IMG/VR virus record: IMGVR_UViG_3300031595_000166
Location: 62,001 to 126,000 of that record
Length of the DNA: 64,000 bases
Source of the DNA: a virus
Direction: 5' to 3' (one strand)
A model generated the notes under the pieces. The model did not search any database and was not told where the DNA came from. It saw nothing but the letters and a program-made list of their open reading frames with translations. Positions 27,512 through 61,806 of this stretch are shown piece by piece. Position 1 is the stretch's first letter; each line of letters begins with the position of its first letter. The translations under genes were made by a program, and so were the position numbers.

Positions 27512-28447
27512 ATGAATATATTGGTATTTGGATTCTATTCCCATATGAATGTGGGCGATAATCTTTTTACCGATGTCTTTCATAAACTATTCCCGCAGCA
27601 TTCATTTACATTTACCGATCATATTACAAACAATTTACTCAAAAACATATCCGCAGTATTCATTGGCGGCGGATCAATGTTATGCGACAAACCAAACATT
27701 GAAAACATCAAGAAACTAAAACTACTTCCAATATATTATATAGGAATTGGTTCTGAGACATTGATAAATCCAGTTCATTTAGATCTAATGAAGCAAGCAA
27801 AGCTAATAGCATTGCGTTCAGATCATAAACTATCTATTATTAGATCAATAAACCCTAATACAATAGTTATTCCTGACTTAGTCTATGCCTTGGCAACAGA
27901 TATAGTTCCAGATCCAATAAGTAAAACGGTTCTTGTGCTACCAAACATAGCAGTAGTCCCACAGAATAATGATCATCATTGGAAACATACTGCTTGGGAG
28001 TGGTTCAGGAATGAGTTTTCGCAGTTTTTAGATAGCATTATTGATCATGGATACAAAATATCCTTCCTATCTATGTGTCAAGACCATAAACTACACGATG
28101 ATTTTGCTTCACTTGGTATCATAAGTAGTATGAAGCACAGAGATATAGATTATATTATTGAATCGGATGATATAATAAAAACAATTTCAGAACATAGCAT
28201 TGTTATTACGCAGAGATATCATGGAATAATACTATCAGAGCTTGCAAGAACACCGTATGTTGCAATACATCATCATGATAAATTGAAAGAATCTTATTTT
28301 AATGCTGGGGCATTTGTTTCATACTACGGATTCAGTAAACAAACAATGAATGATAAGTTCAATCTTGCTATGAAGAAAGATTACAGTTATGATGTATCAG
28401 TATTTGAGAATATATTTAGAACATTAGTTAGCAAGGTGGGAATATGA
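27512..28447 (+). CDS. polysaccharide pyruvyl transferase-like protein, 311 aa
   Basis: Begins MNILVFGFYSHMNVGDNLFTDVF (NxGD start of the CsaB/WcaK type), then FIGGGSMLCD, YYIGIGSE, LRSDHK and, near 240, ITQRYHGIILSELARTPYVAI with the family histidine. Likely adds pyruvyl to a surface sugar. Coupled to the next glycosyltransferase by a four-base overlap. Confidence 0.82.
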   Translation: MNILVFGFYSHMNVGDNLFTDVFHKLFPQHSFTFTDHITNNLLKNISAVFIGGGSMLCDKPNIENIKKLKLLPIYYIGIGSETLINPVHLDLMKQAKLIALRSDHKLSIIRSINPNTIVIPDLVYALATDIVPDPISKTVLVLPNIAVVPQNNDHHWKHTAWEWFRNEFSQFLDSIIDHGYKISFLSMCQDHKLHDDFASLGIISSMKHRDIDYIIESDDIIKTISEHSIVITQRYHGIILSELARTPYVAIHHHDKLKESYFNAGAFVSYYGFSKQTMNDKFNLAMKKDYSYDVSVFENIFRTLVSKVGI

Positions 28448-31066: not shown

Positions 31067-31774
31067 TCATTTTTTGATATGACCGAACTTATACTTGAAC
31101 AACTTATTGGAATTGATATTCCCAATCAAAAACATATAGACGCCAGACAGCACATACTTCAATGCAGTAGTAATTCTTCCATCCTCATCCAGCCTACGAA
31201 CGCTAACAGGTATTTTATGAGATTTCAATACAGCAAACTTACATATCTTAGCCGCTCGTTGAACATAATCAGAATCTTCCCCTAACATAATTCGTTCATC
31301 AAAGCCAAAGATACTATTATGCACAATTCTCTTAGCGAAAATACAGAAGCCCGGAGCATAAGGAAACATATGAGATGATAATACAATGAAAACATTATAT
31401 GCTTCGTGCATTATATGGTCGATTTTCCTATCAGATAACGGTTCAATCTGACAAGTAGCAATGCCTAACCCCGCATAAACAAACTCATTTATTGAATCTT
31501 TCAAGAAGTCTTTTGGCAATATAACATCTGCATCTAAAAATAGTATTAGTTCCCCAGTTGCTATCTTGGCACCAGCGTTTCTACCAGCACCGGGCAATCC
31601 ACCAGTTGTTATTATTGCATTGTATTCTTTTGCTATCTCTAATGTATCATCAGAAGAATGATTGTCTGCAATTATAATCTCATAATCAGAATATGATTGT
31701 TTTTTGATTGATTCTAATAGTAATGGAAGACACTCTTCCTCATTGAATGTTGGTATAACTATGGATAATTGCAT
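31067..31774 (-). CDS. glycosyltransferase family 2, 235 aa
   Basis: GT-A fold: QLSIVIPTFNEEECLPLLLESI at the start, ADNHSSDDT, GRNAGAKIATGE and FLDADV (DxD). The later GEDSDYVQRAA provides the catalytic acid region. Preceded by two tiny membrane peptides that may anchor or regulate it. Confidence 0.87.
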   Translation of the reverse strand: MQLSIVIPTFNEEECLPLLLESIKKQSYSDYEIIIADNHSSDDTLEIAKEYNAIITTGGLPGAGRNAGAKIATGELILFLDADVILPKDFLKDSINEFVYAGLGIATCQIEPLSDRKIDHIMHEAYNVFIVLSSHMFPYAPGFCIFAKRIVHNSIFGFDERIMLGEDSDYVQRAAKICKFAVLKSHKIPVSVRRLDEDGRITTALKYVLSGVYMFLIGNINSNKLFKYKFGHIKK

Positions 31775-35904: not shown

Positions 35905-36110
35905 TGTAGTAATAGGAGTTTCTCAATACGCTCTTCATCAAGAAAGATTCGTTTTTTAAAACGAAGGATATAATCTCCCGATGTACCAACATATACAATT
36001 GTTTTGTATGTAGTCAGTTCATAACATACGACTTCGTATTTGCCTGCTGCATGGACATGAAAAATACGTAAGTTTTTATTGCATACTGGGCAAGTAGAAC
36101 TGTTGTTCAT
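35901..36110 (-). CDS. CPxC...GKY/leucine-tail family, 69 aa
   Basis: CPVCN, HVHAAGKYEVVCY, end DEERIEKLLLLQ. Confidence 0.7.
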   Translation of the reverse strand: MNNSSTCPVCNKNLRIFHVHAAGKYEVVCYELTTYKTIVYVGTSGDYILRFKKRIFLDEERIEKLLLLQ

Positions 36111-36316
36111 TTTAATAAAAATAATTGTTCAATGCGTTCTAATGTCAATGGGATTATATTTTTTAGTCTCAATAACAACAGATCTCCTTTGCTATGAAAA
36201 CTAAAAAACCAAACCATAGTGTTATTGCCCGTAGTGTCATACTCAACATCGTATTTATCTATTGCATGCCAGTGGTGCTTACTTTCTAAGACATCAGAAC
36301 AGATAGGGCAGATCAT
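36107..36316 (-). CDS. CPxC...GKY/leucine-tail family, 69 aa
   Basis: CPICS, HWHAIDKYDVEY, end LERIEQLFLLK. Confidence 0.7.
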   Translation of the reverse strand: MICPICSDVLESKHHWHAIDKYDVEYDTTGNNTMVWFFSFHSKGDLLLLRLKNIIPLTLERIEQLFLLK

Positions 36317-36317
36317 T

Positions 36318-36527
36318 TTATTTCAGTAGGAGGAGTTTCTCAATACGTTCTATTGTCAATACGGCTAACTGACCAAACAATCGCAACAATAGATTTTGTA
36401 TATCAAGATCCCAGACATAAGTATTTGTTCTATTATAGTTAATATAGTTAATATAATACTTTCCGATCCTATGCCAGCACATAGGATTCAACTTTTCGTG
36501 GCAGACTGGGCAAGTGTGTTCTAACAT
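36318..36527 (-). CDS. CPxC...GKY/leucine-tail family, 69 aa
   Basis: CPVCH, CWHRIGKYYINY, end IERIEKLLLLK. Separated by one base from the next copy rather than overlapping it. Confidence 0.7.
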   Translation of the reverse strand: MLEHTCPVCHEKLNPMCWHRIGKYYINYINYNRTNTYVWDLDIQNLLLRLFGQLAVLTIERIEKLLLLK

Positions 36528-36534
36528 TTTCTTT

Positions 36535-36753
36535 TTATTTCAATAATAGTAATTGTTCTATACGATCGAATGTTAGATGAACAAGACCGGCAAAACGCAA
36601 CACATAACTATTACCATCCCATACATTGGTATTATACCGCTCATGCATAACATATTCTACCCCATACGATTTCACATCATTATTAACGATATGACTGTGT
36701 GGATCGTGGTGGAGATTGTTTCCTAGATCATTGGAACAGATTGGGCAGAGCAT
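36535..36753 (-). CDS. CPxC...GKY/leucine-tail family, 72 aa
   Basis: CPICS, HIVNNDVKSYGVEY (diverged GKY), end FDRIEQLLLLK. Confidence 0.7.
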   Translation of the reverse strand: MLCPICSNDLGNNLHHDPHSHIVNNDVKSYGVEYVMHERYNTNVWDGNSYVLRFAGLVHLTFDRIEQLLLLK

Positions 36754-36762
36754 TTTTTGCCT

Positions 36763-37023
36763 TTATTTGAGTAGTGAGAGTTTCTCAATTCGTTCTTCAT
36801 CTAACACAACGAAGCCATCAAGCCTGAATAATTCTTTCCAATAAGAAGTAGTAGTATATTTGAGCCCAAGACTCATTCCTTCAATGTATGAAGTATCATC
36901 AGAAAGCTTAATGTAAATTAGTGTTTTGCGTTCCTTCGCCACGTAGACGATTTCATATTTTCCAAGAACATGTTCGTGCGAAAGATCTCCACTAAAATCA
37001 ACATTACAGATAGGGCAGATCAT
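36763..37023 (-). CDS. CPxC...GKY/leucine-tail family, 86 aa
   Basis: CPICN, HEHVLGKYEIVY, end DEERIEKLSLLK with a serine in the leucine run. Confidence 0.7.
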   Translation of the reverse strand: MICPICNVDFSGDLSHEHVLGKYEIVYVAKERKTLIYIKLSDDTSYIEGMSLGLKYTTTSYWKELFRLDGFVVLDEERIEKLSLLK

Positions 37024-37024
37024 T

Positions 37025-37252
37025 TTATTTCAGTAGTGAGAGTTTCTCAATTCGTTCATCATCCAATACAATCAGACCATCCATAACTAATACTAGATTT
37101 GTTATAGGTGGTACTATATCTTGTCCGGTAAAAACCACAGTTTTGTCCATTTCATCCTCAACAAGATATCTAATCTGATGACGAACGAGAATATGACGAT
37201 GATATACATGGAATACTATATGACACATTGGGCATTCACGCGTGTTATCCAT
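37025..37252 (-). CDS. CPxC...GKY/leucine-tail family, 75 aa
   Basis: CPMC, HRHILVRHQIRY (GKY lost), end DERIEKLSLLK as in the previous gene. The ATG at 37252 is chosen; a longer frame overlaps the upstream gene. Confidence 0.68.
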   Translation of the reverse strand: MDNTRECPMCHIVFHVYHRHILVRHQIRYLVEDEMDKTVVFTGQDIVPPITNLVLVMDGLIVLDDERIEKLSLLK

Positions 37253-37257
37253 TGTAG

Positions 37258-37494
37258 TTACCTCAACAATAATAGTTTTTGCCATCGATCATAAACATTC
37301 GGTCGTTTGTTTTTTAGATATGATATAAGTGTCCTATCAGATTCAAAAAAATAGTCAAGAAACGAATCATGTAATAGGATCTCTATTAGATCTTCGTCTG
37401 ATCTTAATGCAAACTCTATTCTGAATATTGTGGGCGTCAAGGCTCCCACACCAAGCACAAGCAAACCAAGGAGGGCGTATCCAATGTTTTTCAT
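37258..37494 (-). CDS. membrane-anchored leucine-tail protein, 78 aa
   Basis: Short N-terminal transmembrane helix (about 5-22), then a domain (SDEDLIEILLHDSF...ISYLKNKRPNVYDRWQKLLLLR) that matches the small protein at 51242-51415. It shows the leucine tail on a second, unrelated architecture. Confidence 0.65.
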   Translation of the reverse strand: MKNIGYALLGLLVLGVGALTPTIFRIEFALRSDEDLIEILLHDSFLDYFFESDRTLISYLKNKRPNVYDRWQKLLLLR

Positions 37495-37877
37495 TTGGGA
37501 CTCTTCGTGTGTTTTGGTATTCCGTAAGTATAATCGGGATAAATAAAATCACGATACCAATGAACATATGTATATGATTTATATGTTCCACCGATTGATA
37601 CTACTGCCTTGCGCCATTCTTTACCATGTCCCGACTCATCTACAAGTAAATGTGCTGCTTCATGCAACAATAGCAGACGCTCTTTCAACATACTCTTACG
37701 AGATAGACATATCCACCCAGTATATTTATACATCGTGTGAGCATGAGCAGCACTTTTTTTGTCAATGATATCGTCTTGATCCACGCATCCGCCAACGGAT
37801 ATTCCCATAACTTCTTTTATGTCGCGAAGACATGGCGGGAAGTGGAATGGATTTTTGATTAGATACTTTTGCTTCAT
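37491..37877 (-). CDS. SprT-like zinc metallopeptidase, 128 aa
   Basis: LLLLHEAAHLLVDESGHGKEWRKAV supplies HExxH plus the third histidine in HGKEW, the zinc site of SprT/WLM-type peptidases. Compact single domain, no signal peptide. Could trim proteins locally; substrate unknown. Confidence 0.8.
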   Translation of the reverse strand: MKQKYLIKNPFHFPPCLRDIKEVMGISVGGCVDQDDIIDKKSAAHAHTMYKYTGWICLSRKSMLKERLLLLHEAAHLLVDESGHGKEWRKAVVSIGGTYKSYTYVHWYRDFIYPDYTYGIPKHTKSPK

Positions 37878-37885
37878 ATCAACAA

Positions 37886-38365
37886 TTAAATTAGTATAAG
37901 CATTTTCCTAATGCGATCCATTGACATCGTAAAATCCATACCAGATAGATCTATTTTAGAATGCTTATTGAGAACATTGATTATGTAATCGTTGTAATCA
38001 CTCATAGCTGTATATCTTGAACCAAGGTATATGTATCCTTGCTCACGATAGAAAAAATCACTATCATCGCAGTCATTAGACATCTTCAATTCAGTTTCAG
38101 GATCTGCACCATCAATAAAATCAAAAAGAGTGTTGGCTAATGTTTTAAAATACTTTGCGTTGCTTTCTATATTGTCTGTGCTAAAATGGATGTCGTAAGA
38201 ATAATAACTATTCACATCCCAAATAAAATGTGAAACGAATGTTTCTCGATATAGAAACTTGGGACTATCTTCTGGTGATGGAGGAAAAAGATCACGGAAT
38301 ACACCACGACCAAGCTCATACATTGTATGATTGTTCGTATTGACGAGAGTGTATTCGATACCCAT
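37886..38365 (-). CDS. hypothetical leucine-tail protein, 159 aa
   Basis: Globular, tyrosine/serine-rich, no recognised domain, ending MDRIRKMLILI. A third architecture carrying the tail. Confidence 0.62.
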   Translation of the reverse strand: MGIEYTLVNTNNHTMYELGRGVFRDLFPPSPEDSPKFLYRETFVSHFIWDVNSYYSYDIHFSTDNIESNAKYFKTLANTLFDFIDGADPETELKMSNDCDDSDFFYREQGYIYLGSRYTAMSDYNDYIINVLNKHSKIDLSGMDFTMSMDRIRKMLILI

Positions 38366-38371
38366 TTTAAT

Positions 38372-38674
38372 TTACCTTTTGATTGAACATTTAGGACAAT
38401 TGCATCCTAATTTATTAGGACCCCAGTAATCGTTAGTTAGTTCTTCACCGCGCTGGATATCTTTCAATGCCAGCATATCAAAATTGGGATTGATTGGGCG
38501 TATGGTTGGCTCACAAGAATGATTGACTCCGCCACTATCACCATATACATGAAAACCAAGCGATGGCGTTTTGATTATAGAACCTTTTGGAATGAAGCAT
38601 TTAGCGAAGATTCCAATGCCATGGATCTTGCTTGGTAAGTTTTCTTTGTAGTGGAGCCAGTTATACGTTTTCAT
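38372..38674 (-). CDS. SET-domain protein, 100 aa
   Basis: GIGIFAKCFIPKGSII, VNHSCEPT and DIQRGEELTNDYWG are the SAM- and lysine-binding motifs of SET methyltransferases, in order, followed by a CNCPKC zinc-like end. Short for the fold but complete in motifs. It might methylate host or phage proteins. Confidence 0.82.
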   Translation of the reverse strand: MKTYNWLHYKENLPSKIHGIGIFAKCFIPKGSIIKTPSLGFHVYGDSGGVNHSCEPTIRPINPNFDMLALKDIQRGEELTNDYWGPNKLGCNCPKCSIKR

Positions 38675-38938
38675 TTATTGAAGGAGGAGTAGTTTCTCAA
38701 TTCGTTGTTCATCTAATACTACCCAGTCATTCAAGTCTATGACACGAACATATCGACTGTCATGAAATAATGTCTGAAAATCAGGATTATCAATCCATAC
38801 GCTAATGGCTGATAGACCTTCTACTGTATGATAGACTGCTATATATTTACCGAATTTATGATCGTGGCTGGAATAACTATCACGGGATGACAAGAAACAC
38901 TTATGGCATATGGGGCATTGTTGTTCTGTCATAGACAT
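38675..38938 (-). CDS. CPxC...GKY/leucine-tail family, 87 aa
   Basis: CPIC, HDHKFGKYIAVY, end DEQRIEKLLLLQ. The downstream SET gene starts right at the stop, without overlap. Confidence 0.7.
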   Translation of the reverse strand: MSMTEQQCPICHKCFLSSRDSYSSHDHKFGKYIAVYHTVEGLSAISVWIDNPDFQTLFHDSRYVRVIDLNDWVVLDEQRIEKLLLLQ

Positions 38939-40854: not shown

Positions 40855-41103
40855 CTACGGCTTCCCAAAATCTAATTCACAACACCATACCTCTTCTCGT
40901 GTCCACGGCGAAAATACCCCCTTATCCTCGCACGTCGTATCGAGATTTAGTGCAGTGGGATTAGTGTCTTGTGTGCAGAGCCACTCATCTCGGCAGTCGC
41001 TGTAATTGCCGTTGTGCTGTGTGCAGTATGGAATATCTGCTGTCGCTTGAAAACAAGCTGATAAAAAGAGAGAAGATACAATTAGCATTATTGCGTGTTT
41101 CAT
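40855..41103 (-). CDS. lipoprotein, 82 aa
   Basis: Signal peptide with lipobox LSAC (cysteine 17) and seven more cysteines in the mature part (YCTQHNGNYSDC...). Probably disulfide-bonded. Confidence 0.7.
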   Translation of the reverse strand: MKHAIMLIVSSLFLSACFQATADIPYCTQHNGNYSDCRDEWLCTQDTNPTALNLDTTCEDKGVFSPWTREEVWCCELDFGKP

Positions 41104-41112: not shown

Positions 41113-42018
41113 CTATCGTTGATAAACTCTAACATAATCAATCATCATTTCCTTTGGCAGAATGGTTCTACCATCAGGATTGCCAGGCATGTTTCCACCA
41201 ACCGCTACATTTAGCAGGATGTAAAACGGATGGTCATTAAATACCCACGTAGATCCGCGTGGCATATCTTGTGGCGTCTTAGTATGATACAGCATGTTGT
41301 CTACATAGAACCTAACAACATTAGGTTCCCACTCTACTGAATAGATATGGTAAGTATCTGATAGCAAGCTCCTGCGAAGGAGTGGCAACGAAAATGTTCC
41401 AGTCATTGGATGACTGCTATGATAACCTGGCCCATGCATTGAACCGTGATTAGTCTTTGGTTCTCTGCCAATATTTTCCATGATATCGATCTCGCCACAA
41501 TTTGGCCAGCCAACCTCTTGAATGTTAGCTCCAAGCATCCAGAATGCGCTCCAGATACCTTGTGTTTTTGGAATCATAATGCGTGCCTCAACACGACCAT
41601 AGGTAAACTCAAACTTCTTAGCAGTAGTAAGACGAGCGGAAGTATATTGCATTCCCTGATAGTCTTCGCGTTGAGCGCGAATAGCAAGATGTCCATCACC
41701 TGTTAGGTGGGCATTTTCAATGCGGTCAGTGTAGTATTCGAGCTCGTTATTTCCCCAGCCATTGCCACCCGTTGCATGATTCCATTTAGATGGATCAGGA
41801 GGAGTATTAGCTTGCCCGTTGAAGTCATCCGACCATACAAGTTTCCAAGACGGATCTGCAATTTCAAGTTTTCCAGAAGGTGTGAGTAATCCCATTTGAA
41901 TCTCGTTAGTTTTAGTTTTAGTGTTAGTGTTAGTGTTAGTGTTAGTGTTATATTGATATTGCGTTGTTGCAATACAACCAGTTAGTAAGGCGAGTAATAG
42001 TGTTGATATTTTTTTCAT
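41113..42018 (-). CDS. GH16 endo-beta-glucanase lipoprotein, 301 aa
   Basis: Lipobox LTGC (cysteine 15), a TN/TK-repeat stalk, then the laminarinase/lichenase-type fold with WNHATGGNGWGNNELEYYT and the catalytic GEIDIMENIG (ExDxxE). Would cut beta-1,3 or mixed-linkage glucan outside the cell. Overlaps the synthase gene by four bases, so it belongs to the glucan operon. Confidence 0.88.
   Translation of the reverse strand: MKKISTLLLALLTGCIATTQYQYNTNTNTNTNTKTKTNEIQMGLLTPSGKLEIADPSWKLVWSDDFNGQANTPPDPSKWNHATGGNGWGNNELEYYTDRIENAHLTGDGHLAIRAQREDYQGMQYTSARLTTAKKFEFTYGRVEARIMIPKTQGIWSAFWMLGANIQEVGWPNCGEIDIMENIGREPKTNHGSMHGPGYHSSHPMTGTFSLPLLRRSLLSDTYHIYSVEWEPNVVRFYVDNMLYHTKTPQDMPRGSTWVFNDHPFYILLNVAVGGNMPGNPDGRTILPKEMMIDYVRVYQR
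41905..41950. repeat. 6-bp tandem repeat (TN/TK stalk)
   Basis: GTGTTA/GTTTTA units encode the (TN)n(TK)n stalk between the lipobox and the GH16 domain. Confidence 0.85.
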
Positions 42019-43766
42019 CTTAGAATATAATCCGATTTATGATCTTTAGTCCAGCCAGTGAAGCCATTGGTTAAATTATACTCCGGCTTAGCATACCAAG
42101 ATATCCAAAACCACCCCAACGGAATATCACCCTTAGTAATAGAGCGCCAGCAACAAGATACGAATCGCCTGATACGATACAAAATAGCGATTCGCTGAGC
42201 GCGTGATGCAATCAACGTACGGGTTGGATAAAATTTAACATTGCACCCATTTAGAAAAATGTCTTCACACACTCCAACGAATGTTGTCATACTATAAAAC
42301 ACAAACATAAATACATGTGTAATAGGAATAAAAATCGCTGTAAGAAAAAGATGTGTAAATTGTTCTTTTTTCTCTTCAAAAAACCATACCATGAAAAGAT
42401 ACAAAAATTGCATAGTATATGTAATCATATAGATGAACATCAATCCGTCGAGAACAGACTTGTCATGCCATGCCAAGAATGGCAGCAACATATAGAACAC
42501 AACGGCGTGAAACGACCAGTAAACACATCGTAAATAATCACCATAAAAGGGAATGGCAATACTCCAATAAAACAAAAACCCCTTGAAGAAACGACCGCTT
42601 GTTTCAACGCGGCACGCCATCCAACGTTTTCGTTGCGAGAACAAAGATTTTAGTGTTGGCGGTGTAAACGTATATACTTTAGCTGATTGCTCAAAACCTT
42701 GAATACGTTCAATAAACGAATCAAAAATAAATCTAACAAAAGAATGCAACGGAGTAGGAGGAGGATCCCAAGACAGTTTACCATTTTTACCCCAATGAGA
42801 CATTGCAACAAAAACAGCCAAAGAACTGTCATCTGTATTTCCGCAAAGGGCCTGCGGAATTTCTTCACCATCATATTCTGAAAACTTCGGCAAACTTTTT
42901 CCGAACCACCACTTAATATAGTCGCTATACTTGATAGTTTCAAGCCACCCCATAAACTTAGGAGCAGTGATAATCATATCTGACCACGATACGTAAAGTT
43001 GTCCTAGTAGGATTGGCATAGGAAGTATGTTGATATTTTCTTGCATTGCGCTAAAACTAAAGAAGTTTCGTGCAACGAAAAGATAATTTTGACCAGCAAT
43101 AGTAAAAAATGAACGCCAGCCCTTCCACATATCGCCTTTATTTATACAAACTTGACCACAAACGACTTTTCTATAATTACCAGTTAGCCAATGTTTGGTC
43201 ATTAATTTTTCAACTAACTTTTGAAGAGAACCATTAGAAACAGTTTCATCAGCGTCAACACTAAAATAGACCACAGGCATAGACGACAGTTTACCGCTTT
43301 TGATGAGATTTTTCATATAATTAATGGCAGCATACACCGCTACTAATTTTCCCTGTCTTACCTCATTGTAAGAAGTATGCAAGTGAATATTTTTAGAATA
43401 GTTGCAAGAATTAACCCAATTCACGAGTTTTTGATATACGGTGGGATTTTCCGAACGACCATCAGCAGATGCAATAATATGCAGTTCACCCGGATAATTA
43501 TTAGTAGCACAGCTATCAACTGCCCTAATAATTTCCTTTAGATCGTATTCGTCTCGAAGAAGAGATGGAACAATAACCATACCCGATGGAAAATTATTCC
43601 GATCTACATCGGATGTAAATGGAAATACTTTATTAAAGAGTTTTTTAAAAGGATACACTACGTATATAAATTGTGTGTAAAATAATCCAATTAAAAACGC
43701 ACTAATAATAATCCACCCAAGATTAAATCCATTACCACTGAGTAGTCTTACCGCTGCATTAATCAT
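42015..43766 (-). CDS. processive GT2 polysaccharide synthase, 583 aa
   Basis: Membrane glycosyltransferase of the cellulose-synthase/hyaluronan type: SADGRSE (first Asp), FSVDADE (DxD), GNTDDSS (catalytic-base region) and QRKRW (QxxRW). One transmembrane helix lies at the N-terminus and four or five after residue 410. The GH16 gene next to it suggests a beta-glucan product; adaptor and TolC-like genes lie upstream. No PilZ domain is visible. Confidence 0.85.
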   Translation of the reverse strand: MINAAVRLLSGNGFNLGWIIISAFLIGLFYTQFIYVVYPFKKLFNKVFPFTSDVDRNNFPSGMVIVPSLLRDEYDLKEIIRAVDSCATNNYPGELHIIASADGRSENPTVYQKLVNWVNSCNYSKNIHLHTSYNEVRQGKLVAVYAAINYMKNLIKSGKLSSMPVVYFSVDADETVSNGSLQKLVEKLMTKHWLTGNYRKVVCGQVCINKGDMWKGWRSFFTIAGQNYLFVARNFFSFSAMQENINILPMPILLGQLYVSWSDMIITAPKFMGWLETIKYSDYIKWWFGKSLPKFSEYDGEEIPQALCGNTDDSSLAVFVAMSHWGKNGKLSWDPPPTPLHSFVRFIFDSFIERIQGFEQSAKVYTFTPPTLKSLFSQRKRWMACRVETSGRFFKGFLFYWSIAIPFYGDYLRCVYWSFHAVVFYMLLPFLAWHDKSVLDGLMFIYMITYTMQFLYLFMVWFFEEKKEQFTHLFLTAIFIPITHVFMFVFYSMTTFVGVCEDIFLNGCNVKFYPTRTLIASRAQRIAILYRIRRFVSCCWRSITKGDIPLGWFWISWYAKPEYNLTNGFTGWTKDHKSDYILR

Positions 43767-43795
43767 TTTTCAATCCCTCACGGTTAATAATTAAC

Positions 43796-44881
43796 TTATG
43801 GACGAAGACGTAAAATCTTTGATCGCATAGCTTCTGACTTCACATCCAATGTGATATATCTACCACGTGATTGACTACTAGACATTGGATCAATCAACAC
43901 AGTCTCGCCAACAATAATGTCTTTAACCGTGCCTACGTTTTTACAAGCGAACAAGCCCCAGATACAATCATATACTGGTGTTCCCGTAGAAGCATTATCT
44001 GCTTGCTCGTAAGGAAGAAATGCAACATTCACGTTGCTATTAATAGCTGAAAATACCGGGCGCGACATTACTTGCTTTTCCAACACCGCAATATCAGCCA
44101 ATTCAGATTGAACACGTTCCTTTTCAGCCAGTCCAGTCTTCATCAAACCATCAATTTGCAATCGTTGAATCTCGATTCTACCCATAAGATCGGCAGCCGT
44201 TAGAATAGCTGGCATTGGCATACTATTATTGCCATTCTTATTACCAGTCAACGACTGCAATCCCAACGTAGCCTGACTAAGCAAAACATCAGTCTGAATC
44301 TTGACATGATCGTTGGAGAACAATGCGATCTGAATGTTATCCAACGCTTGTTGTTGCAATTGATACTCTGGCAACTTTAGAATACCAGCCTCATAATTCC
44401 TCTTGGCTTCCGCAGTCAATGCAGTCTGACGCCCTAGCATCACTTGCAATGCTTTCTTTTGCTCAGCAAGGGTAGCAATATCGGTTCCACCAATCGCAAC
44501 CTGTTGATTAGTAGTAGTATCAGTGAATGCCAACGCATGTTCGCCAAGCTCCTTTAGCTTATCCAGTTTAATTAGTGCTAGCTCGCCATCTTCCAACTGA
44601 GCCTCAATACTCTTTTGCTCGGACAACGCACGACCCTTTTCAAGTTTCACCTCTGCCATTTTCAATGCAGACTGAACAACCATATCATTGTCTGGCCCAA
44701 GTATGAATGGTGCACAAAACCCATCCGTGGCAATATAATAACCTTCACGCGAAGCATATCCGCATGATCCAACAAGACTGGCGAGGGCTACAAAAGAAAA
44801 TACCCTAGTTTTCCAGTGCTTGATCTTTGGCTGAACGTTAGTTGCTTCCATTGTCGTTTCATTTCCCATTGTAGTATCCAT
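43796..44881 (-). CDS. HlyD/membrane-fusion-like adaptor, 361 aa
   Basis: Short N-terminal cytoplasmic part and signal anchor (FSFVALASLVGSCGYAS), then a long coiled-coil hairpin (80-270) and a beta region with FSAINSNVNVAFLPYEQ and IVGETVLIDP. This is the layout of periplasmic adaptors that join inner-membrane synthases to outer-membrane channels. Confidence 0.7.
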   Translation of the reverse strand: MDTTMGNETTMEATNVQPKIKHWKTRVFSFVALASLVGSCGYASREGYYIATDGFCAPFILGPDNDMVVQSALKMAEVKLEKGRALSEQKSIEAQLEDGELALIKLDKLKELGEHALAFTDTTTNQQVAIGGTDIATLAEQKKALQVMLGRQTALTAEAKRNYEAGILKLPEYQLQQQALDNIQIALFSNDHVKIQTDVLLSQATLGLQSLTGNKNGNNSMPMPAILTAADLMGRIEIQRLQIDGLMKTGLAEKERVQSELADIAVLEKQVMSRPVFSAINSNVNVAFLPYEQADNASTGTPVYDCIWGLFACKNVGTVKDIIVGETVLIDPMSSSQSRGRYITLDVKSEAMRSKILRLRP

Positions 44882-44883
44882 GA

Positions 44884-45990
44884 TTATTTTCCTTCTCCAT
44901 AAAACTTGTTGAGTTCAGTTAGCATACCGACAATCAATTCCTTATTGCTTTCCGCATCCATGATCTGAAGTTGAATCAATGCATCTGAATTCAATGCAGT
45001 CGGAGCATCCAAGTGAGCCTGCAAACTATTATGTGTTGTAGTCAACTGAGCAATCTGTGTTTCAGTCAATGTCAACTGACGTTTGAGATCATTCATATTA
45101 GCAACAATGCTATCACGGAACCTTGTCAACTGACCAGTCAATTCATAACGAGCATTCCTAAGCTCTCGACTACGAACATCAAGGTATTGGTTCTCATTAT
45201 GAATCAATGGAATACCACCGAAGTTATACGAGACGCTAACATAACCAGCCCAAGTCCAAGTATCACTTGTTCCAGCCATTGGGGGAATGCCACCAATCTC
45301 AATATTAGTTTTCCATGCATCGAACCTATGAAGGTTGCTTGCGCGACGTTCAAACTCCATACTGCTATTCTGAACGTGAGACATCAATTCTTCAAACGAG
45401 TTTTGCTTGGCAACATATTGCTTCGCATGCAATACATCCAACTGACCTTGTGCCTGCAATCGCTTCAGCTCCAATGAAGTAGCCAATTGTTGTAGCATAG
45501 TAATATCAGTAATGGTAGCAACACCAGCGGTCAATCGCTTATTAGCTTGCGACAAAAGATCATTAGCATGATCCTTATGCTCATTGAGATATGTCAATGT
45601 ATTATTGTAGGCAGTTTCCTTGCCAACATCGTTAAGATATTCAAGCGCTTGTTGCGCCTGAACCATTGCAACTTGCTGATTGCAATTAGCATCAGCTAGC
45701 TTACGAACAAGAGTAGATCTGAATGCATCCAATGGAGACCAAGAAAGAGAAGCTCTTGCCTGATATCCATTTTTTGAGATAGACCCGCCAATCGATGCAA
45801 TACCAGAACTGCTGGGATAGTGAATACCCTCAACAACAATAGCAGGAAACAATAGCAACGATGCATCACCAGCCCCACGAGCCCTAATAGCTTCACAATC
45901 TTTTGATTGCGTTGCAGTTTGAGCCATGACAGAACTTGCCATCAACACACTTGCCAATCCGATTCCTAACGAACTAAATACCTTCTTCAT
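44884..45990 (-). CDS. TolC-family outer-membrane efflux protein, 368 aa
   Basis: Signal peptide MKKVFSSLGIGLASVLMASSVMA, then long helices with repeated-half character (KLADANCNQQVAMVQAQQALEYL...; RELRNARYELTGQLTRFRDSI) and a beta segment between them (WTWAGYVSVSYNFGGIP). A bit shorter than classic TolC (about 430). Would supply the export channel of the glucan operon. Confidence 0.75.
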   Translation of the reverse strand: MKKVFSSLGIGLASVLMASSVMAQTATQSKDCEAIRARGAGDASLLLFPAIVVEGIHYPSSSGIASIGGSISKNGYQARASLSWSPLDAFRSTLVRKLADANCNQQVAMVQAQQALEYLNDVGKETAYNNTLTYLNEHKDHANDLLSQANKRLTAGVATITDITMLQQLATSLELKRLQAQGQLDVLHAKQYVAKQNSFEELMSHVQNSSMEFERRASNLHRFDAWKTNIEIGGIPPMAGTSDTWTWAGYVSVSYNFGGIPLIHNENQYLDVRSRELRNARYELTGQLTRFRDSIVANMNDLKRQLTLTETQIAQLTTTHNSLQAHLDAPTALNSDALIQLQIMDAESNKELIVGMLTELNKFYGEGK

Positions 45991-46337
45991 TTGCACAAAC
46001 CTTCCGCAATGTTAGTATTACCTTCAACCACAATACACCCAAGATTACAAGGGAAACCAAGGTCAGTATGCTCATCACACCAACCATTACTTGCACGAAC
46101 TTCACCATCAGGGATATCAAAATACGATATACCGATTCCACTATCCCCACCGCCACCACAATTCACTACATAGGTGCCAGCATCAGTCTCGCAAGTGATA
46201 GTCGTGCCAGTGAAGCCAGCATCGACACTCGCCTCACCGTGCCCGCCATCCGTCGCATTGACCCCTGCAACGGTCGTCAAGCAACCAGCAGACTGCACAC
46301 CAATGGCAGTCGCAAACATCATAATCAATCGATTCAT
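45987..46337 (-). CDS. lipoprotein, 116 aa
   Basis: Lipobox SAGC (cysteine 19), a glycine/aspartate-rich stretch (GGGGDSGIG) and several cysteines. Coupled to the TolC-like gene by an ATGA overlap, so it may belong to the export machine. Confidence 0.7.
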   Translation of the reverse strand: MNRLIMMFATAIGVQSAGCLTTVAGVNATDGGHGEASVDAGFTGTTITCETDAGTYVVNCGGGGDSGIGISYFDIPDGEVRASNGWCDEHTDLGFPCNLGCIVVEGNTNIAEGLCK

Positions 46338-46343: not shown

Positions 46344-46568
46344 TTATTCTCCGTTTTCAACCGAATACACTTCAACATTAGCCATCTCACCACGGCTAAC
46401 AACAAGGTCAAACTCAACACGAGTTCCACGACCAAGATTCAATTCCCTAACCCTATCAGTCGCTCGCATAACAATGCGTTCGGCATAAGAGCCTTTTGAT
46501 GGAACCGGACTCACAACAAAATGTGAGCCAACCATGTCTGCAACAATGTGATGATCGTAGGTATTCAT
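46344..46568 (-). CDS. hypothetical beta-rich protein, 74 aa
   Basis: GRGTRVEFDLVVSRGEMANVEVY suggests a small barrel. First gene after the promoter at 46602-46630, so it leads the glucan operon. Confidence 0.6.
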   Translation of the reverse strand: MNTYDHHIVADMVGSHFVVSPVPSKGSYAERIVMRATDRVRELNLGRGTRVEFDLVVSRGEMANVEVYSVENGE

Positions 46569-46601: not shown

Positions 46602-46630
46602 ATTATAAGCACCCTGACTTCCCGCGTCAA
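46602..46630 (-). promoter_or_regulatory. consensus sigma70-like promoter
   Basis: TTGACG (46625-46630), 17-bp spacer with 11 G/C, TATAAT (46602-46607). The best −10 in the window, placed to drive 46344 and the downstream glucan genes. Confidence 0.85.
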
Positions 46631-47116: not shown

Positions 47117-47329
47117 TTACTTCAATAGCATCAACATATCTATATACTCTTCATCCAATCGTTTTGGACTATTCAATGTAATCCTACTATTCTTATCCGA
47201 GTAATTTGCTTGTATATAGATACGAACCTCAGTATCCCAATATACGAACACAAGATACTTACCAACAGTATGACTGCATGAAGCATAATCATATAGACAG
47301 TAATCACAAACTGGACAAGTATAGCTCAT
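47117..47329 (-). CDS. CPxC...GKY/leucine-tail family (YID type), 70 aa
   Basis: This sub-array has SPKRLDEEYIDxMLLLK in place of ERIEKLLLLQ. CPVCDYC, CSHTVGKYLVFVY. The next gene is 85 bases away beyond a promoter, so no downstream start depends on the tail. Confidence 0.7.
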   Translation of the reverse strand: MSYTCPVCDYCLYDYASCSHTVGKYLVFVYWDTEVRIYIQANYSDKNSRITLNSPKRLDEEYIDMLMLLK

Positions 47330-47556
47330 TTCAATAACAATAACCCTTCAATACGCTCCTCATTCAGCAACGTTAATTTTTTAATACTCAGTAGTAATGG
47401 TGAGAGACGTTCTCTTGGATATATGTCAATCAATTCATTGGGAGAATCTACACCATAATAACCCACGCCATAATACACATCGTATTTACCATATCTATGA
47501 AAACAACACGATGACGATGACAGATACATATGACAATCTGGGCAAGTATAATTCAT
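47326..47556 (-). CDS. CPxC...GKY/leucine-tail family, 76 aa
   Basis: CPDCH, CCFHRYGKYDVYYG, end NEERIEGLLLLK: an ERIE-type copy among YID-type neighbours. Confidence 0.7.
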   Translation of the reverse strand: MNYTCPDCHMYLSSSSCCFHRYGKYDVYYGVGYYGVDSPNELIDIYPRERLSPLLLSIKKLTLLNEERIEGLLLLK

Positions 47557-47732
47557 TTCAATAACAATACCATATCAATATACTCTTCACTCAATCTCTT
47601 TGGAGACTTCAATGTTAGTAAAAAACCATTCGTGTCTCCGGCTTTATTAGCTCTATACACATTAACATAACCACCAATAAGAACAAACACAACATACTTA
47701 TTGAGGGTGTGTCTACATCTAACATTTGTCAT
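47553..47732 (-). CDS. truncated CPxC...GKY copy lacking the knuckle, 59 aa
   Basis: Starts MTNVRCRHTLNKYVVFV, missing the CPxC pair but retaining the GKY-like strand, SPKRLSEEYIDMVLLLK tail and ATGA coupling. Probably decaying or recently reshaped. Confidence 0.55.
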   Translation of the reverse strand: MTNVRCRHTLNKYVVFVLIGGYVNVYRANKAGDTNGFLLTLKSPKRLSEEYIDMVLLLK

Positions 47733-47750
47733 ATCTCTTGAATCAAAAAA

Positions 47751-47918
47751 CTAACTAATCTTGAATAGGATCTTGCTCCAATTATTGATATAACATTTGA
47801 CTGACATATCACTGTATATAAGAACACCATATTTACCTATGCTATGATGACAATATAATACGCTTGGATCAGTATAAGATTCCTTATACATAATGAGATT
47901 ACAGTTAGGACATTTCAT
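47751..47918 (-). CDS. truncated CPxC...GKY copy lacking the tail, 55 aa
   Basis: Has CPNCN and CHHSIGKYGVLIY but stops at ...SKILFKIS, before the conserved tail. Complements the neighbour that lacks the knuckle; the two are not one broken gene because each keeps its own GKY strand. Confidence 0.55.
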   Translation of the reverse strand: MKCPNCNLIMYKESYTDPSVLYCHHSIGKYGVLIYSDMSVKCYINNWSKILFKIS

Positions 47919-48157
47919 TTCAATAACAGCATCATATCAATATACTCTTCATCCAAGCGCTTTGGAGATTTCAATCTCAAAATACGACTGGACCTTATTG
48001 TTATTGGGTATAAATATACTCCAACTGCACCGTCGGAAAATGTTATGATATAGTATTTACCAATATCATGTTCACACAGAACATCACACAGAACATCAAA
48101 CTGGTCTTCATCAAAAAAACTTGTATTCTTATCACAGACCGGACAGGTATAACTCAT
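47915..48157 (-). CDS. CPxC...GKY/leucine-tail family, 80 aa
   Basis: CPVCD, CEHDIGKYYIITF, end LDEEYIDMMLLLK; an insertion carries a VLCDVLC duplication. Confidence 0.7.
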   Translation of the reverse strand: MSYTCPVCDKNTSFFDEDQFDVLCDVLCEHDIGKYYIITFSDGAVGVYLYPITIRSSRILRLKSPKRLDEEYIDMMLLLK

Positions 48158-48369
48158 TTTAGCAACAGCATCTTATCGATATAATCTTCACTCAATGTCT
48201 TTGGACTATTGAGTGTTAGTATTCGCATTGGGGATGGATCGGTAGTTTTATTATTCCAAACATTCACACTTCCGGTATCATAAATATGGACTGAGTATCT
48301 ACCAATCAGATGATGATGGTATCTTGGCAAGGGCGAGCTATTATTACAGACGGGGCAGATATAACTCAT
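48154..48369 (-). CDS. CPxC...GKY/leucine-tail family, 71 aa
   Basis: CPVCN, HHHLIGRYSVHIY, end LSEDYIDKMLLLK. Confidence 0.7.
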   Translation of the reverse strand: MSYICPVCNNSSPLPRYHHHLIGRYSVHIYDTGSVNVWNNKTTDPSPMRILTLNSPKTLSEDYIDKMLLLK

Positions 48370-48560
48370 TTTAGCAACAGCATCATATCAATATACTTTT
48401 CACTCAATCTTTTTGGAAAAGACAGGTTCAACAAGCATCTTTCTCCATCGTAGATGTAAGCCTCGCCATCAAAATGAATATAAGCAGTATATAAACCAAC
48501 GGTATGTTCATGCAGTAGCATCGTTATAATATAATTACAGACGGGACAAGTATAATTCAT
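48366..48560 (-). CDS. CPxC...GKY/leucine-tail family, 64 aa
   Basis: Shortest intact copy: CPVCN, HEHTVGLYTAYIH, end LSEKYIDMMLLLK. Confidence 0.7.
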   Translation of the reverse strand: MNYTCPVCNYIITMLLHEHTVGLYTAYIHFDGEAYIYDGERCLLNLSFPKRLSEKYIDMMLLLK

Positions 48561-48763
48561 TTTAGTAGCAATATCATATCAATATATGTTTCATCTAAAC
48601 GTTTTGGACGTTCTAGTCTAACAACAAACTTCCCAGTATACCAGATAGAAATCAGACCGTCGTTATACACATAAGCAGTATATTTACCCAGCCTATGCGT
48701 ACATGTCTTTTCAATGTATTTTGATTGAAAATCTTCATTGCAGACGGGACAGATATAATTCAT
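48557..48763 (-). CDS. CPxC...GKY/leucine-tail family, 68 aa
   Basis: CPVCN, CTHRLGKYTAYVY, end LDETYIDMILLLK. First gene of the sub-array, divergent from the second kinase-like gene. Confidence 0.7.
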   Translation of the reverse strand: MNYICPVCNEDFQSKYIEKTCTHRLGKYTAYVYNDGLISIWYTGKFVVRLERPKRLDETYIDMILLLK

Positions 48764-48796: not shown

Positions 48797-49972
48797 ATGC
48801 ATTACGGTGATTTATACATTCAAGCAAAACTCTTTTACAAGATGGCAGAGGAAACTCTCGACATTCTTCCGGGGAACTTGTATAAATTCGTTATGTACAA
48901 AACACAAGGGAAAATTACACCGGAAGTAGCAGATAATTTCGTCGTTGCAAACAAGACAACATTGTCTAAACTTAAGTTCGTTGATTGGAGTGGTAATTTC
49001 GAAAAGAATGGTAGTAAATTATTTGGTGAAGATGGAGATGGAGAACGATATATGATCTCAACTGAATCTACACCGCCGAAGAACTCACATGTCAAACAAT
49101 CATATATACTGCAAGGGAAACATCCAATACCAACACTTTATGTATTCAGATATGAGCGTGGTAGCGATGTAGAGTTTCCAAAAGAACTCGGACATTACTT
49201 GTTTCTAATGCCAGCGTTATGCGATATGTTCGATGTTGCGTATCCATATTACTTTCAAGATCCAGATCATATGAATGACTTTGTCAAGTTCGTTCAAGAA
49301 AATAAGGCTAAGATTGATTCCATTCGATCTCGATTCCAACACGAGCCAAAACCATTAGGAAGCGGATCAGATGGCTTTGTTTTTGCGATTGGCAAGGATA
49401 GGATATTGAAGATATTCAAACAGCAATTCTCATATCAAGCGGCAAAAGAATCTGCAAACCGAATATGGAAACAACACGGCATAGCAGGAACCGAAGCATA
49501 CATTGATGACATTGGTCAGATTGGAAACTTCGGAGAACACCCGGTATATTATTATATACAAGAACGAATGGAAACCGTGTTCAATTTCTTGAAGAATGAT
49601 GTTGACTTCAATGGAAATAGAAGAGACAGAAAAATGTCTCAAATAACAGACTTCATGAAAGATATAGCAAAAACTATTAAGAACGATCCAAACTATCCTG
49701 CTATATACAGGAACAAAAACAATCCAAGAATTGGTAATGCGATCAGGTCATTAGCGGAGAGAGTGTATAATCGAATTGTCTATTTTGTAAACGAAGAGAT
49801 TACTGATGATTTCGCTGGTAAATTACAACCTGATTGGATGCTAAAACTAATTGAAGAGATGGCTGGAAAACTAATCACGGACAGAATGGATTTGCGATCA
49901 TATAATGTTGGGATTACAGGGAACGGTTATTTGAGATTCTTTGATCCTGCATTTGATCCAAAAGAATTATAG
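48797..49972 (+). CDS. protein-kinase-like paralogue, 391 aa
   Basis: Same plan as 14355-15566: PLGSGSDGFVFAIGKDRILKIFK (glycine loop and lysine), YYYIQERM hinge, MDLRSYNVGI and FFDPAF. The HxD histidine is replaced (DLRSYN for DLHFGN), so catalysis may be altered. Convergent with the 49967 gene by six bases. Confidence 0.62.
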   Translation: MHYGDLYIQAKLFYKMAEETLDILPGNLYKFVMYKTQGKITPEVADNFVVANKTTLSKLKFVDWSGNFEKNGSKLFGEDGDGERYMISTESTPPKNSHVKQSYILQGKHPIPTLYVFRYERGSDVEFPKELGHYLFLMPALCDMFDVAYPYYFQDPDHMNDFVKFVQENKAKIDSIRSRFQHEPKPLGSGSDGFVFAIGKDRILKIFKQQFSYQAAKESANRIWKQHGIAGTEAYIDDIGQIGNFGEHPVYYYIQERMETVFNFLKNDVDFNGNRRDRKMSQITDFMKDIAKTIKNDPNYPAIYRNKNNPRIGNAIRSLAERVYNRIVYFVNEEITDDFAGKLQPDWMLKLIEEMAGKLITDRMDLRSYNVGITGNGYLRFFDPAFDPKEL

Positions 49973-50191
49973 TAGCAACAGCATCTTTTCAATATACTCT
50001 ATGTTCAGTTTATCGTATGATAATACTTCAAAAATGAACTGATGACCATAATACACGCGCGACACACCATCATCATAAACAACAACAACATATGGACTAA
50101 TGTTATGCTGGTTCGTACAAAACTTTCTATCTGGACGCTGATTTGATATAATCATATCGTCTGCATTACAGACCGGACATCTTTTACTCAT
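49967..50191 (-). CDS. CPxC/leucine-tail family, 74 aa
   Basis: CPVCN, then CTNQHNISPYVVVVY (GKY replaced by SPY), end IEYIEKMLLLL. Confidence 0.68.
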   Translation of the reverse strand: MSKRCPVCNADDMIISNQRPDRKFCTNQHNISPYVVVVYDDGVSRVYYGHQFIFEVLSYDKLNIEYIEKMLLLL

Positions 50192-51418: not shown

Positions 51419-51655
51419 TTATCTCAATAGTAAGAATTTTTCAATTCGTTCTTCATCAAGAAAGACCAACTTACTAAATTGAAGCAGAACAATACTTTGT
51501 TCTACAACTAGTAGTACTCTTGTCATATATTCACCGGACATACTTACATTATCGTATAATACTTTATATTTTCCTACTAAATGATCGCAATATGGAACAC
51601 CATTGCCAGACGCAGACATATTGTAATCACAGATTGGGCAATGTAATGTCTTCAT
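51419..51655 (-). CDS. CPxC...GKY/leucine-tail family, 78 aa
   Basis: CPICDYN, CDHLVGKYKVLY, end DEERIEKFLLLR. Confidence 0.7.
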   Translation of the reverse strand: MKTLHCPICDYNMSASGNGVPYCDHLVGKYKVLYDNVSMSGEYMTRVLLVVEQSIVLLQFSKLVFLDEERIEKFLLLR

Positions 51656-51849
51656 TTTAGTAGTAGTAATTTCTCTATGCGCTCTTCATCCAAGAGACAC
51701 TGTTTTTCAAGATACAATACAAAAATGTTTTCGCACCAAACATTTATCCATTCAACACAATAATAGACAGTATATTTGCTATACATATGACGGCAAAAAT
51801 ACTTTGTACTACTCCAATACAATTCTTTATTACAGTGGGGGCAATTCAT
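51652..51849 (-). CDS. CPxC...GKY/leucine-tail family, 65 aa
   Basis: CPHCN, CRHMYSKYTVYY, end DEERIEKLLLLK. The bases just before its ATG (CTACTACTAAAATGA) still spell an LLLK-stop tail although no gene is left upstream. Confidence 0.7.
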   Translation of the reverse strand: MNCPHCNKELYWSSTKYFCRHMYSKYTVYYCVEWINVWCENIFVLYLEKQCLLDEERIEKLLLLK

Positions 51850-51896
51850 TTTAGTAGTAGGATACACAGGTATTGACTTCGGGACAGTTGAACATA

Positions 51897-56056: not shown

Positions 56057-56467
56057 TTATACCAACAGCAAAAACTTTTGCAGGTTTTCTTTTCCATAGA
56101 TGTGTTTGTTATCAAGTTGTGGAATGTAATTGCCATTGATCCAGTATCGAGTTTCTCCATTAGCAAACTCAGTAGCAGGTCCGTCTTCTCGATGAAGTTT
56201 GCCATTGATATACCAGTATTTGCTTCCATTAGCAAGCTCAATAGCAGGTCCGTCTTCTCGATGACGATTGTCGTTGAGATACCAGCGTTTGTCTCCATTA
56301 AAATACTCAATAGCAGGACCATCTTTCCGATGATATTTGCCATTGAGATACCAATATTTGCTTCCATCAGCATACTCAATAGCAGGACCGTCTTTACGGT
56401 GAAGTTTGCCATTGAGATACCAGTGTTTGTCTCCATTAGCATGGACTTTACATTCAGGCTTATTCAT
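56057..56467 (-). CDS. HREDGPA-repeat protein, 136 aa
   Basis: Four repeats, two of the HRKDGPA form, then IPQLDNKHIYGKENLQKFLLLV. ATGA overlap with the next copy. Confidence 0.85.
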   Translation of the reverse strand: MNKPECKVHANGDKHWYLNGKLHRKDGPAIEYADGSKYWYLNGKYHRKDGPAIEYFNGDKRWYLNDNRHREDGPAIELANGSKYWYINGKLHREDGPATEFANGETRYWINGNYIPQLDNKHIYGKENLQKFLLLV

Positions 56468-56739
56468 ATCAGGAGTAAAAACTTTTGCAAGTTTTCTTTT
56501 CCATAGATATGTTTGTTATCGAGTTGTGGAATGTAATTGCCATTGATCCAGTATCGAGTTTCTCCATTAGCAAACTCAGTAGCAGGTCCGTCTTCTCGAT
56601 GAAGTTCGCCATTGAGATACCAGTATTTGATTCCATTAGCATACTCAACAGCAGGACCATCTTCTCGATGAAGATTGCCGTTTAGATGCCAGTGTTTGTC
56701 TCCATTAGCATGGACTTTACATTCAGGCTTACCGTTCAT
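56464..56739 (-). CDS. HREDGPA-repeat protein, 91 aa
   Basis: Two repeats and the IPQLDNKHIYGKENLQKFLLLI end. Almost identical to the downstream copy with two repeats removed, which points to repeat-number change by recombination. Confidence 0.85.
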   Translation of the reverse strand: MNGKPECKVHANGDKHWHLNGNLHREDGPAVEYANGIKYWYLNGELHREDGPATEFANGETRYWINGNYIPQLDNKHIYGKENLQKFLLLI

Positions 56740-57497
56740 AGACACTGACATGCTGATTCGCTAAACACTTTTTGTACTCTATAACCATCAATTTCTTCGG
56801 TATATGCTTCGCACAGATCCCCAATCTCTTGACTAACAGTATAATAACCAGTATAGTTATCAGGGTCAGTACTGGACTCAGCTAATTCGTGAGAGATTAC
56901 TTCATCAACAAAATCATAATTAGAGTTGTATTGAATGATAGCGAAGGTATATCGATTGCTACCATATGCCGTATGACTATGGTATCCATTCCAACTATTA
57001 CTTACCATTGTAGTTGTAATGACATTCGGCGGAAGCATAATGACATAGATTGTATTGTCATTTGGGAATGGAATAGTTCCAGCGAGAATATTATTGTTGA
57101 TATCGGCAACAAGAATGCTATCATCAACAGTGATTTGTTTTGAGATTAGATTGAACCCCGAGTTTACATCAAGTTTAGGTTCGCTATAATGATCAACTGG
57201 GTCAAGCGTTCCAGACTCAATACCATACTCGCTCAATCGTTGAAGCACGGTTCCAAGATCAAGCATATTATGCCACGCGTTTTGATAGTATTGTGGCTCA
57301 ATGAAGTTAGTGCCAGTCGTCCAATAACTACCATCGTAAATAAAATGCATCTCGGGTGTTTTTAGAAGCCAACCCGATGGATCATGGCGATAGACTTCAT
57401 ATTGACATGAAGGATTTGGATCAGTGTTTACTACCTGATCAATGTTTCCGGCACAACCAATGAATGAGAGGAGGATGATTGGGAGGAGGAGTTTCAT
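56736..57497 (-). CDS. lipoprotein with HELAES motif, 253 aa
   Basis: Lipobox FIGC (cysteine 15). Around residue 205 DEVISHELAESSTDPDN parallels the SHE motif of 18003-18716 and hints at a zinc peptidase. The mature part is Asn/Tyr-rich. Expressed from the promoter at 57510-57538. Confidence 0.68.
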   Translation of the reverse strand: MKLLLPIILLSFIGCAGNIDQVVNTDPNPSCQYEVYRHDPSGWLLKTPEMHFIYDGSYWTTGTNFIEPQYYQNAWHNMLDLGTVLQRLSEYGIESGTLDPVDHYSEPKLDVNSGFNLISKQITVDDSILVADINNNILAGTIPFPNDNTIYVIMLPPNVITTTMVSNSWNGYHSHTAYGSNRYTFAIIQYNSNYDFVDEVISHELAESSTDPDNYTGYYTVSQEIGDLCEAYTEEIDGYRVQKVFSESACQCL

Positions 57498-57968: not shown

Positions 57969-59863
<1,895 letters not shown>

Positions 59864-61783: not shown

Positions 61784-61806
61784 GACGCTACATACCTTTG
61801 TTTGTA

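Follow-up and report, generated by a model that had tools for sequence, protein, structure and literature searches.

Gene content and layout of the operon

We examined a 64,000-nucleotide stretch of viral DNA (the window; positions 62001-126000 of the 157,262-base IMG/VR record IMGVR_UViG_3300031595_000166) that carries a compact operon built around a glycosyltransferase family 2 (GT2) synthase and a glycoside hydrolase of family 16 (GH16). Its gene content supports the original prediction of an operon for the synthesis, export, and cleavage of an exopolysaccharide. The five open reading frames (ORFs) then named all lie where they had been placed, on the minus strand, but the limits drawn around them were too narrow, as a 74-amino-acid ORF precedes them and the gene of an 82-amino-acid lipoprotein, which is probably the final gene of the operon, follows them. 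The features are as follows:

46602..46630, minus strand: sigma-70-type promoter, TTGACGcgggaagtcagggtgcTTATAAT, matching 11 of 12 consensus positions
46344..46568, minus strand: 74-amino-acid ORF of unknown function, first in the operon, between the promoter and the lipoprotein gene
45987..46337, minus strand: 116-amino-acid cysteine-rich putative lipoprotein with an SAGC lipobox, lacking any family match
44884..45996, minus strand: TolC/OEP-like outer membrane factor with a signal peptide, labeled from its position in the cassette and from PF02321 matches in 2 of 16 homologs
43796..44881, minus strand: HlyD-like periplasmic adaptor, labeled from alignment, a low-confidence helix/strand layout, and its constant partnership with the GT2
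42015..43766, minus strand: processive-type GT2 polysaccharide synthase, labeled from catalytic motifs, the Pfam matches of its relatives, and membrane segments
41113..42018, minus strand: GH16 laminarinase-like lipoprotein with an LTGC lipobox (PF00722, PDB 2hyk)
40855..41103, minus strand: 82-amino-acid small putative lipoprotein (LSAC), 9 bp downstream of the GH16 gene

Small lipoprotein genes flank the core genes at both ends of the operon. The first of them overlaps the TolC-like gene by 10 bp, or by 4 bp if the latter starts at the ATG at 45990 and not at the GTG at 45996. Gaps of 2 bp and 29 bp separate the TolC-like gene from the HlyD-like gene and the HlyD-like gene from the GT2 gene, respectively, and the GT2 and GH16 genes overlap by 4 bp.

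At the level of sequence, the strong promoter that had been proposed is present (TTGACG-17-TATAAT, 46630-46602). An element of the form TTGAC-N(11-14)-GTGCTTATAWT occurs at four sites in the 157-kb record, the other three being at window position 47085 (minus strand) and at two places elsewhere in the record, while by our own estimate the number of matches expected by chance per record is far below one. The operon therefore uses a promoter type found elsewhere in the genome. Its GC content is 37-43%, compared with 38.6% for the phage.

The three core proteins

The GT2 has membrane segments at both its N-terminal and its C-terminal end, and its catalytic residues are intact (D102, D171-A-D173, D312-D313, and QRKRW at 378-382, that is, Q378-R-x-R-W382). 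It thus presents the membrane GT2 with D, DxD, D, and QxxRW that marks synthase-dependent secretion. Taken alone, the window protein gives a weak match to PF13641 (0.0032) and weak matches to PgaC, NodC, and HpnB; among its 17 relatives, 14 match PF13641, 10 match PF13632, and 3 match Chitin_synth_2. From these motifs and matches we place the family firmly in the processive GT2 superfamily.

The HlyD-like protein has an N-terminal membrane segment, a long helical region, and a C-terminal beta-type domain with the motif YDCxWGLFxCxxVGTVK. Its anatomy and its constant partnership with the GT2 suggest that it works like an HlyD-type adaptor. The TolC-like label is a weaker assignment that draws on two OEP matches among its relatives (2 of 16 match PF02321, with a best E value of 1e-4, and the window protein itself has no match), together with a signal peptide, anatomy, and gene context. 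When profiles of the three families were run against the PDB, only chance matches came back, and no solved structure lies near the GT2.

Two further loci of the bacterial phylum in which we found cellular relatives of these proteins (described below) carry a NodC/hyaluronan-synthase-like GT2 together with relatives of the window HlyD-like protein (L126:8589-12925 and L125:7735-9734). The L126 GT2 matches the NodC model with an E value of 6e-53, and this locus also has a distant TolC-like protein. The presence of an HlyD-like relative beside such synthases suggests that the export chassis may serve several different ones.

The operon resides in a phage genome

The claim that the operon sits on a phage replicon proved correct. 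The window's first 25 kb is collinear with positions 384-406 kb of a 406-kb viral record (G001), with about 35-100% protein identity per gene, and the nicotinamide adenine dinucleotide (NAD)-dependent ligase is 90% identical between the two. G001 has the genes of a tailed jumbo phage, with a terminase large subunit, portal, baseplate wedge, DNA polymerase, DnaB, UvsX, and endolysin. The scanned proteins of the 157-kb record include replication and metabolism genes and no structural genes, so the record is probably a genome fragment. The cassette sits past window position 25 kb, where the genome is variable. Searches of the whole of G001 found no GT2 or GH16 relatives, and a separate reading of that record outside its 320-326 kb stretch found none of the operon.

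Related cassettes in bacterial chromosomes

Single-protein searches of phage, plasmid, viral-contig, and genome-contig sequences found no GT2 relatives, because the family is too diverged, and single-protein and profile searches likewise found no close kin of the core proteins among phage, plasmid, and PDB sequences. Relatives were reached through whole genomes of one phylum and then by profile. Among 379 genomes of the phylum of the metagenome-assembled genome Deltaproteobacteria DP_38, we found two full-length GT2 homologs (E values of 1e-77 and 7e-74). When a three-row GT2 profile was applied to an order represented by 184 genomes, 12 of them proved to hold 15 copies in all, and a full-length homolog is also present in another order (genome G303). 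With a 17-row profile, 247 Acidobacteriota yielded no homolog. The phylum is most likely Myxococcota. Genomes bearing the cassette are 6.6-12 Mb in size, and the cassette loci measured have a GC content of 64-76%.

TolC-like, HlyD-like, and GT2 genes are contiguous in that order in 14 of the 16 cellular copies. The exceptions are L159, in which the HlyD and TolC genes are swapped, and the minus-strand copy of L152, which has no adjacent TolC gene of its own. Compared with the cellular proteins, those of the window are 27-39% (GT2), 24-37% (HlyD), and 20-33% (TolC) identical. One cellular subgroup is nearest for all three, at 34-39%, 34-37%, and 28-33%, respectively, although with TolC a single member of a different subgroup scores equally well. 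In phmmer searches against one of the cellular loci (L123), the E values were 9e-80 for GT2, 6e-48 for HlyD, and 1e-37 for TolC.

Despite a mean identity of 25-31% across the three proteins (31% for the GT2), the phage cassette retains 56 of the 65 GT2 residues, 25 of the 29 HlyD residues, and 8 of the 9 TolC residues that are invariant in the cellular copies. Such a pattern points to purifying selection that keeps the machine working, and not to decay.

Some bacterial genomes carry two cassettes side by side, in tandem in L155:2559-11190 and divergently in L152:6837-17628, and the paired copies come from two GT2 subgroups. We found no description of a chromosomal TolC-HlyD-GT2 cassette in the literature.

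A second phage and a shared history

A scan of 2.9 million IMG/VR viral contigs with the GT2 profile found one further phage sequence, represented by two contigs (L200, 215.9 kb, and L199, 52.6 kb) whose fetched stretches are identical; two further profile scans of viral contigs found no third phage. Two phage genomes among 2.9 million contigs, at the sensitivity of these pattern scans, bear out the rarity that had been expected of the operon on phages; L200 carries it, and the sister G001 does not. The L200 TolC, HlyD, and GT2 genes share the tight order and single strand of those in the window, and their products are 36, 42, and 37% identical to them. Flanking genes mark L200 as a phage of the same lineage: an OmpA is 63% identical to the product of window 20126-21151, and lipoproteins are 56-65% identical to those encoded at 152-154 kb of the record.

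In separate GT2, HlyD, and TolC trees, the window and L200 form a clade with 100/99 support. The phage GT2 pair is sister to the cellular subgroup L150/L152/L153/L155 (99/98), and in a tree without the second phage the window falls in the same place on a long branch. Given that the phage pair is monophyletic in all three trees, the simplest history would be one old capture by the phage lineage, after which the cassette was maintained in some members but not in others and its fourth gene was exchanged.

The fourth gene and the nature of the polymer

The GH16 assignment is certain from its sequence matches (PF00722, 1.8e-24; laminarinase 2hyk, E = 6e-84), and the catalytic GEIDIMENIG, with its ExDxxE motif, is intact. 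Directly behind the lipobox, an (AACACT)n hexamer repeat (window 41906-41950) encodes an NTNTNT linker, and its copy number may change without a shift of frame.

The closest kin of this protein are stand-alone bacterial GH16s, mostly from Acidobacteria, at 57% identity. GH16s found beside cellular cassettes are 25-32% identical to it and have a PEIDIE active-site motif. No GT2, HlyD, or TolC relatives lie near the best 80 bacterial GH16 matches, so we rejected the GH16 as a pointer to the donor of the cassette.

Several cellular cassettes have glycosidase lipoproteins nearby, which are GH16s in L152 (twice), L155, and L158 and of another glycosidase-like type in L123, L149, and L156. The second phage carries in place of the GH16 an unrelated lipoprotein gene with the same 4-bp overlap with the GT2 gene. 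The protein has no Pfam or PDB match; it groups with the L123/L149/L156 family and shares a GxxxDxE motif with TIM-barrel glycosidases, which suggests that it too may be a glycosidase. From these comparisons, the GH16 stands outside the conserved core as a replaceable fourth gene, and it is weak evidence on the identity of the polymer. The leading candidate for the polymer is a beta-glucan, a guess for which the GH16 is the sole basis.

A probable captured secretion machine and its alternatives

Our preferred reading, which we hold to be probable, is that the operon encodes a synthase-dependent polysaccharide secretion machine that a jumbo-phage ancestor captured once from a bacterium, probably of Myxococcota type. 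It builds on observed gene content and order, homology, common ancestry with the cassette of the second phage, and the retention of catalytic and invariant residues. The path of export, the nature of the polymer, and its purpose we infer as follows. The phage promoter at 46630 would drive transcription of the operon. The GT2, in the inner membrane, would polymerize a nucleotide sugar, most likely into a beta-linked polymer, and thread the chain outward via the membrane segments that it has itself. The HlyD-like adaptor would bridge the periplasm between the GT2 and the TolC-like channel, through which the polymer could cross the outer membrane. An outer membrane lipoprotein glycosidase, here the GH16, might trim or clear the polymer. 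The infected cell would thereby gain a new outer coat, which could change how other phages adsorb to it, how predators take it, or whether cells aggregate, and the coating may be directed against rivals. The variable region in which the operon sits holds several other envelope genes (OmpA, lipoproteins, a pyruvyl transferase, and glycosyltransferases), which fit with remodeling of the infected cell surface.

Several points weigh against this reading. The closer sister phage G001 does not have the cassette, which is therefore dispensable. The HlyD- and TolC-like labels are built on weak matches and context; the HlyD-like protein matches no entry of Pfam, NCBIfam, or the PDB, membrane fusion proteins included, and none of the three families has a solved or characterized member. 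Single-sequence AlphaFold models of the GT2 and HlyD-like proteins were poor (predicted local distance difference test score of 40). In addition, the name of the donor phylum is one that we infer.

The strongest competing explanation, to which we give somewhat less than an even chance, is that the machine makes another beta-linked polymer (poly-GlcNAc, a chitin-like polymer, or a heteropolymer) and that the GH16 was added independently and may cut host or prey glucan. The weak similarity of the GT2 extends to PgaC, NodC, and chitin synthase no less than to glucan synthases, and the NodC/hyaluronan-synthase-like partners in L125 and L126, the closer kinship of the phage GH16 to stand-alone enzymes than to cassette-linked ones, and the second phage, whose cassette has no GH16, all agree with it. 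However, GH16-class enzymes recur beside cellular cassettes, and the phage GH16 gene overlaps that of the synthase. In another reading the GH16 is the useful gene, which breaks down glucan around the host or opens the cell for release, with the synthesis genes minor or only modifying the host's polymer. Rhizobium phages do carry annotated beta-glucanases (GH16 genes), but both phages keep the synthase, adaptor, and channel under constraint, although the second lacks the GH16, and we consider this unlikely.

It is similarly improbable that the TolC- and HlyD-like proteins export another cargo, such as a protein or small molecule, with the GT2 acting as a lipid- or envelope-modifying transferase. 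That the adaptor has no Pfam match and that the N-terminal part of the GT2 resembles HpnB, a hopanoid-associated transferase, would suit such a role; yet the cassette has no ABC, RND, or MFS pump, and the GT2, its sole inner membrane candidate, carries the QxxRW motif of processive enzymes. Finally, the absence of the cassette from the 406-kb sister and its location in a variable region could indicate passenger DNA without a role, either a recent pickup or a misassembled piece of host chromosome. We rejected both versions, which we judge very improbable: the GC content of the operon is like that of the phage and not like that of the cellular loci (about 62-76%), a phage-type promoter motif lies ahead of it, it has diverged deeply from the cellular copies while retaining their invariant residues, and the second phage cassette is monophyletic with it.

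Neighboring genes of the phage record

Other parts of the record show repeated expansion of gene families. A short repeat protein motif, WYLNGKLHREDGPAxE, is present in many copies (window 42-1083, 15570-16139, 56057-56751, and 60281-63158, and L004-L007), most of which match a single site in G001. Tandem ORFs of ~65-90 amino acids starting MxYxCPVC (window 36107-38938, 47117-48763, 49967-50191, and 51419-51867) are diverged copies of one CxxC protein, a family that grew by duplication. Two diverged paralog pairs, about 35% identical, link the conserved and variable parts (14355-15566 with 48797-49972, and 20126-21151 with 58844-59863), and one of them is an OmpA-type outer membrane protein.

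At window 21263-23732, a NAMPT/NAPRTase-family gene adjoins a nucleotidyltransferase gene; both are about 90% identical in the 406-kb sister, and the pair probably serves NAD salvage. The variable region encodes a polysaccharide pyruvyl transferase and GT1-type and GT2-type glycosyltransferases (window 27512-29697 and 31067-31774), and a 100-amino-acid SET-domain protein (PF00856, 2.9e-10) is encoded near the operon at 38372-38674. A 474-amino-acid ORF with a glutamyl-tRNA synthetase-like N terminus (L003:16114-17538) is 60% identical in the sister phage.

Comparison with known systems and significance

The layout had been likened to those of alginate and mixed-linkage glucan systems, but the comparisons do not support kinship with either. 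The GT2 had no tblastn match among plasmids, including pSymB, which carries BgsA; Pfam scans of the operon found no PilZ-type cyclic di-GMP (c-di-GMP) receptor; and no Alg44 PilZ, AlgE barrel, AlgL lyase, or modification genes were found in the operon or the scanned neighbors. HH comparison of the GT2 with Sinorhizobium meliloti BgsA gave an hhalign probability of 0.8%, although these single-sequence comparisons, which also took in S. meliloti BgsB and Escherichia coli BcsA, TolC, CusC, EmrA, and CusB, had no power. The alginate system comprises Alg8-Alg44-AlgK-AlgE-AlgL. Like it, the phage cassette combines a GT2 synthase, an HlyD-like periplasmic part, an outer membrane exit, and a polymer-cleaving enzyme; unlike it, the cassette has a TolC-like exit in place of the AlgE barrel, a hydrolase in place of a lyase, and no PilZ, epimerase, acetylation, or scaffold genes. 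By this comparison, the alginate and mixed-linkage glucan systems are best seen as analogues, not relatives.

In the S. meliloti BgsB-BgsA system for mixed-linkage (1,3;1,4)-beta-glucan, as described in the relevant sections of two reports, an HlyD-like gene directly precedes that of a GT2 bearing D,D,D,QxxRW (PMC9495663, PMC7997180). BgsA has no PilZ domain, which is common but not universal in such systems (PMC7997180), and is activated by c-di-GMP via its C-terminal domain (PMC9495663, PMC7997180). This two-gene core of an HlyD-like protein and a GT2 without PilZ resembles that of the phage, but the proteins have no detectable sequence kinship, and those sections mention no co-encoded TolC-like channel or GH16.

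The chromosomal cassettes are closer, with the same three families in the same order and a nearby extracytoplasmic glycosidase; they differ in their high GC content, their chromosomal location, the motif type of the GH16 at their side, and the presence of two copies in some genomes. Laminarinases such as 2hyk share the fold family and catalytic ExDxxE of the phage GH16, whereas the phage version is a putative lipoprotein whose gene overlaps that of the synthase.

The closest analogue among viruses is that of the chloroviruses, which also encode processive GT2s that coat infected cells and are patchily distributed among relatives, and the purpose of their hyaluronan and chitin synthases is still debated (PMC5408694). 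Their host is a eukaryotic alga and their export relies on a single enzyme, whereas the phage brings a predicted double-membrane apparatus with its synthase. Our search of the open-access literature turned up no report of a phage-borne cassette of this kind. To our knowledge, no phage has been reported to carry a synthase, periplasmic adaptor, and outer membrane channel together. Virus-borne polysaccharide synthesis is known; what sets this case apart is that the virus would also supply the apparatus for export across two membranes, and that the cassette belongs to an undescribed family.

We regard it as an evenly balanced proposition that a jumbo-phage lineage has long carried a three-part system for synthesis and double-membrane export with a swappable glycosidase, that it gives infected cells a new surface layer, and that such coating would parallel, in prokaryotes, the hyaluronan coats made by chloroviruses, achieved via an undescribed synthase family of myxobacterial type. 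The phage cassette is small and self-contained and has chromosomal counterparts, which makes the question of host coating testable in bacteria, and it reveals that soil bacteria with large genomes probably harbor a family of synthase-export cassettes that has not been described before.

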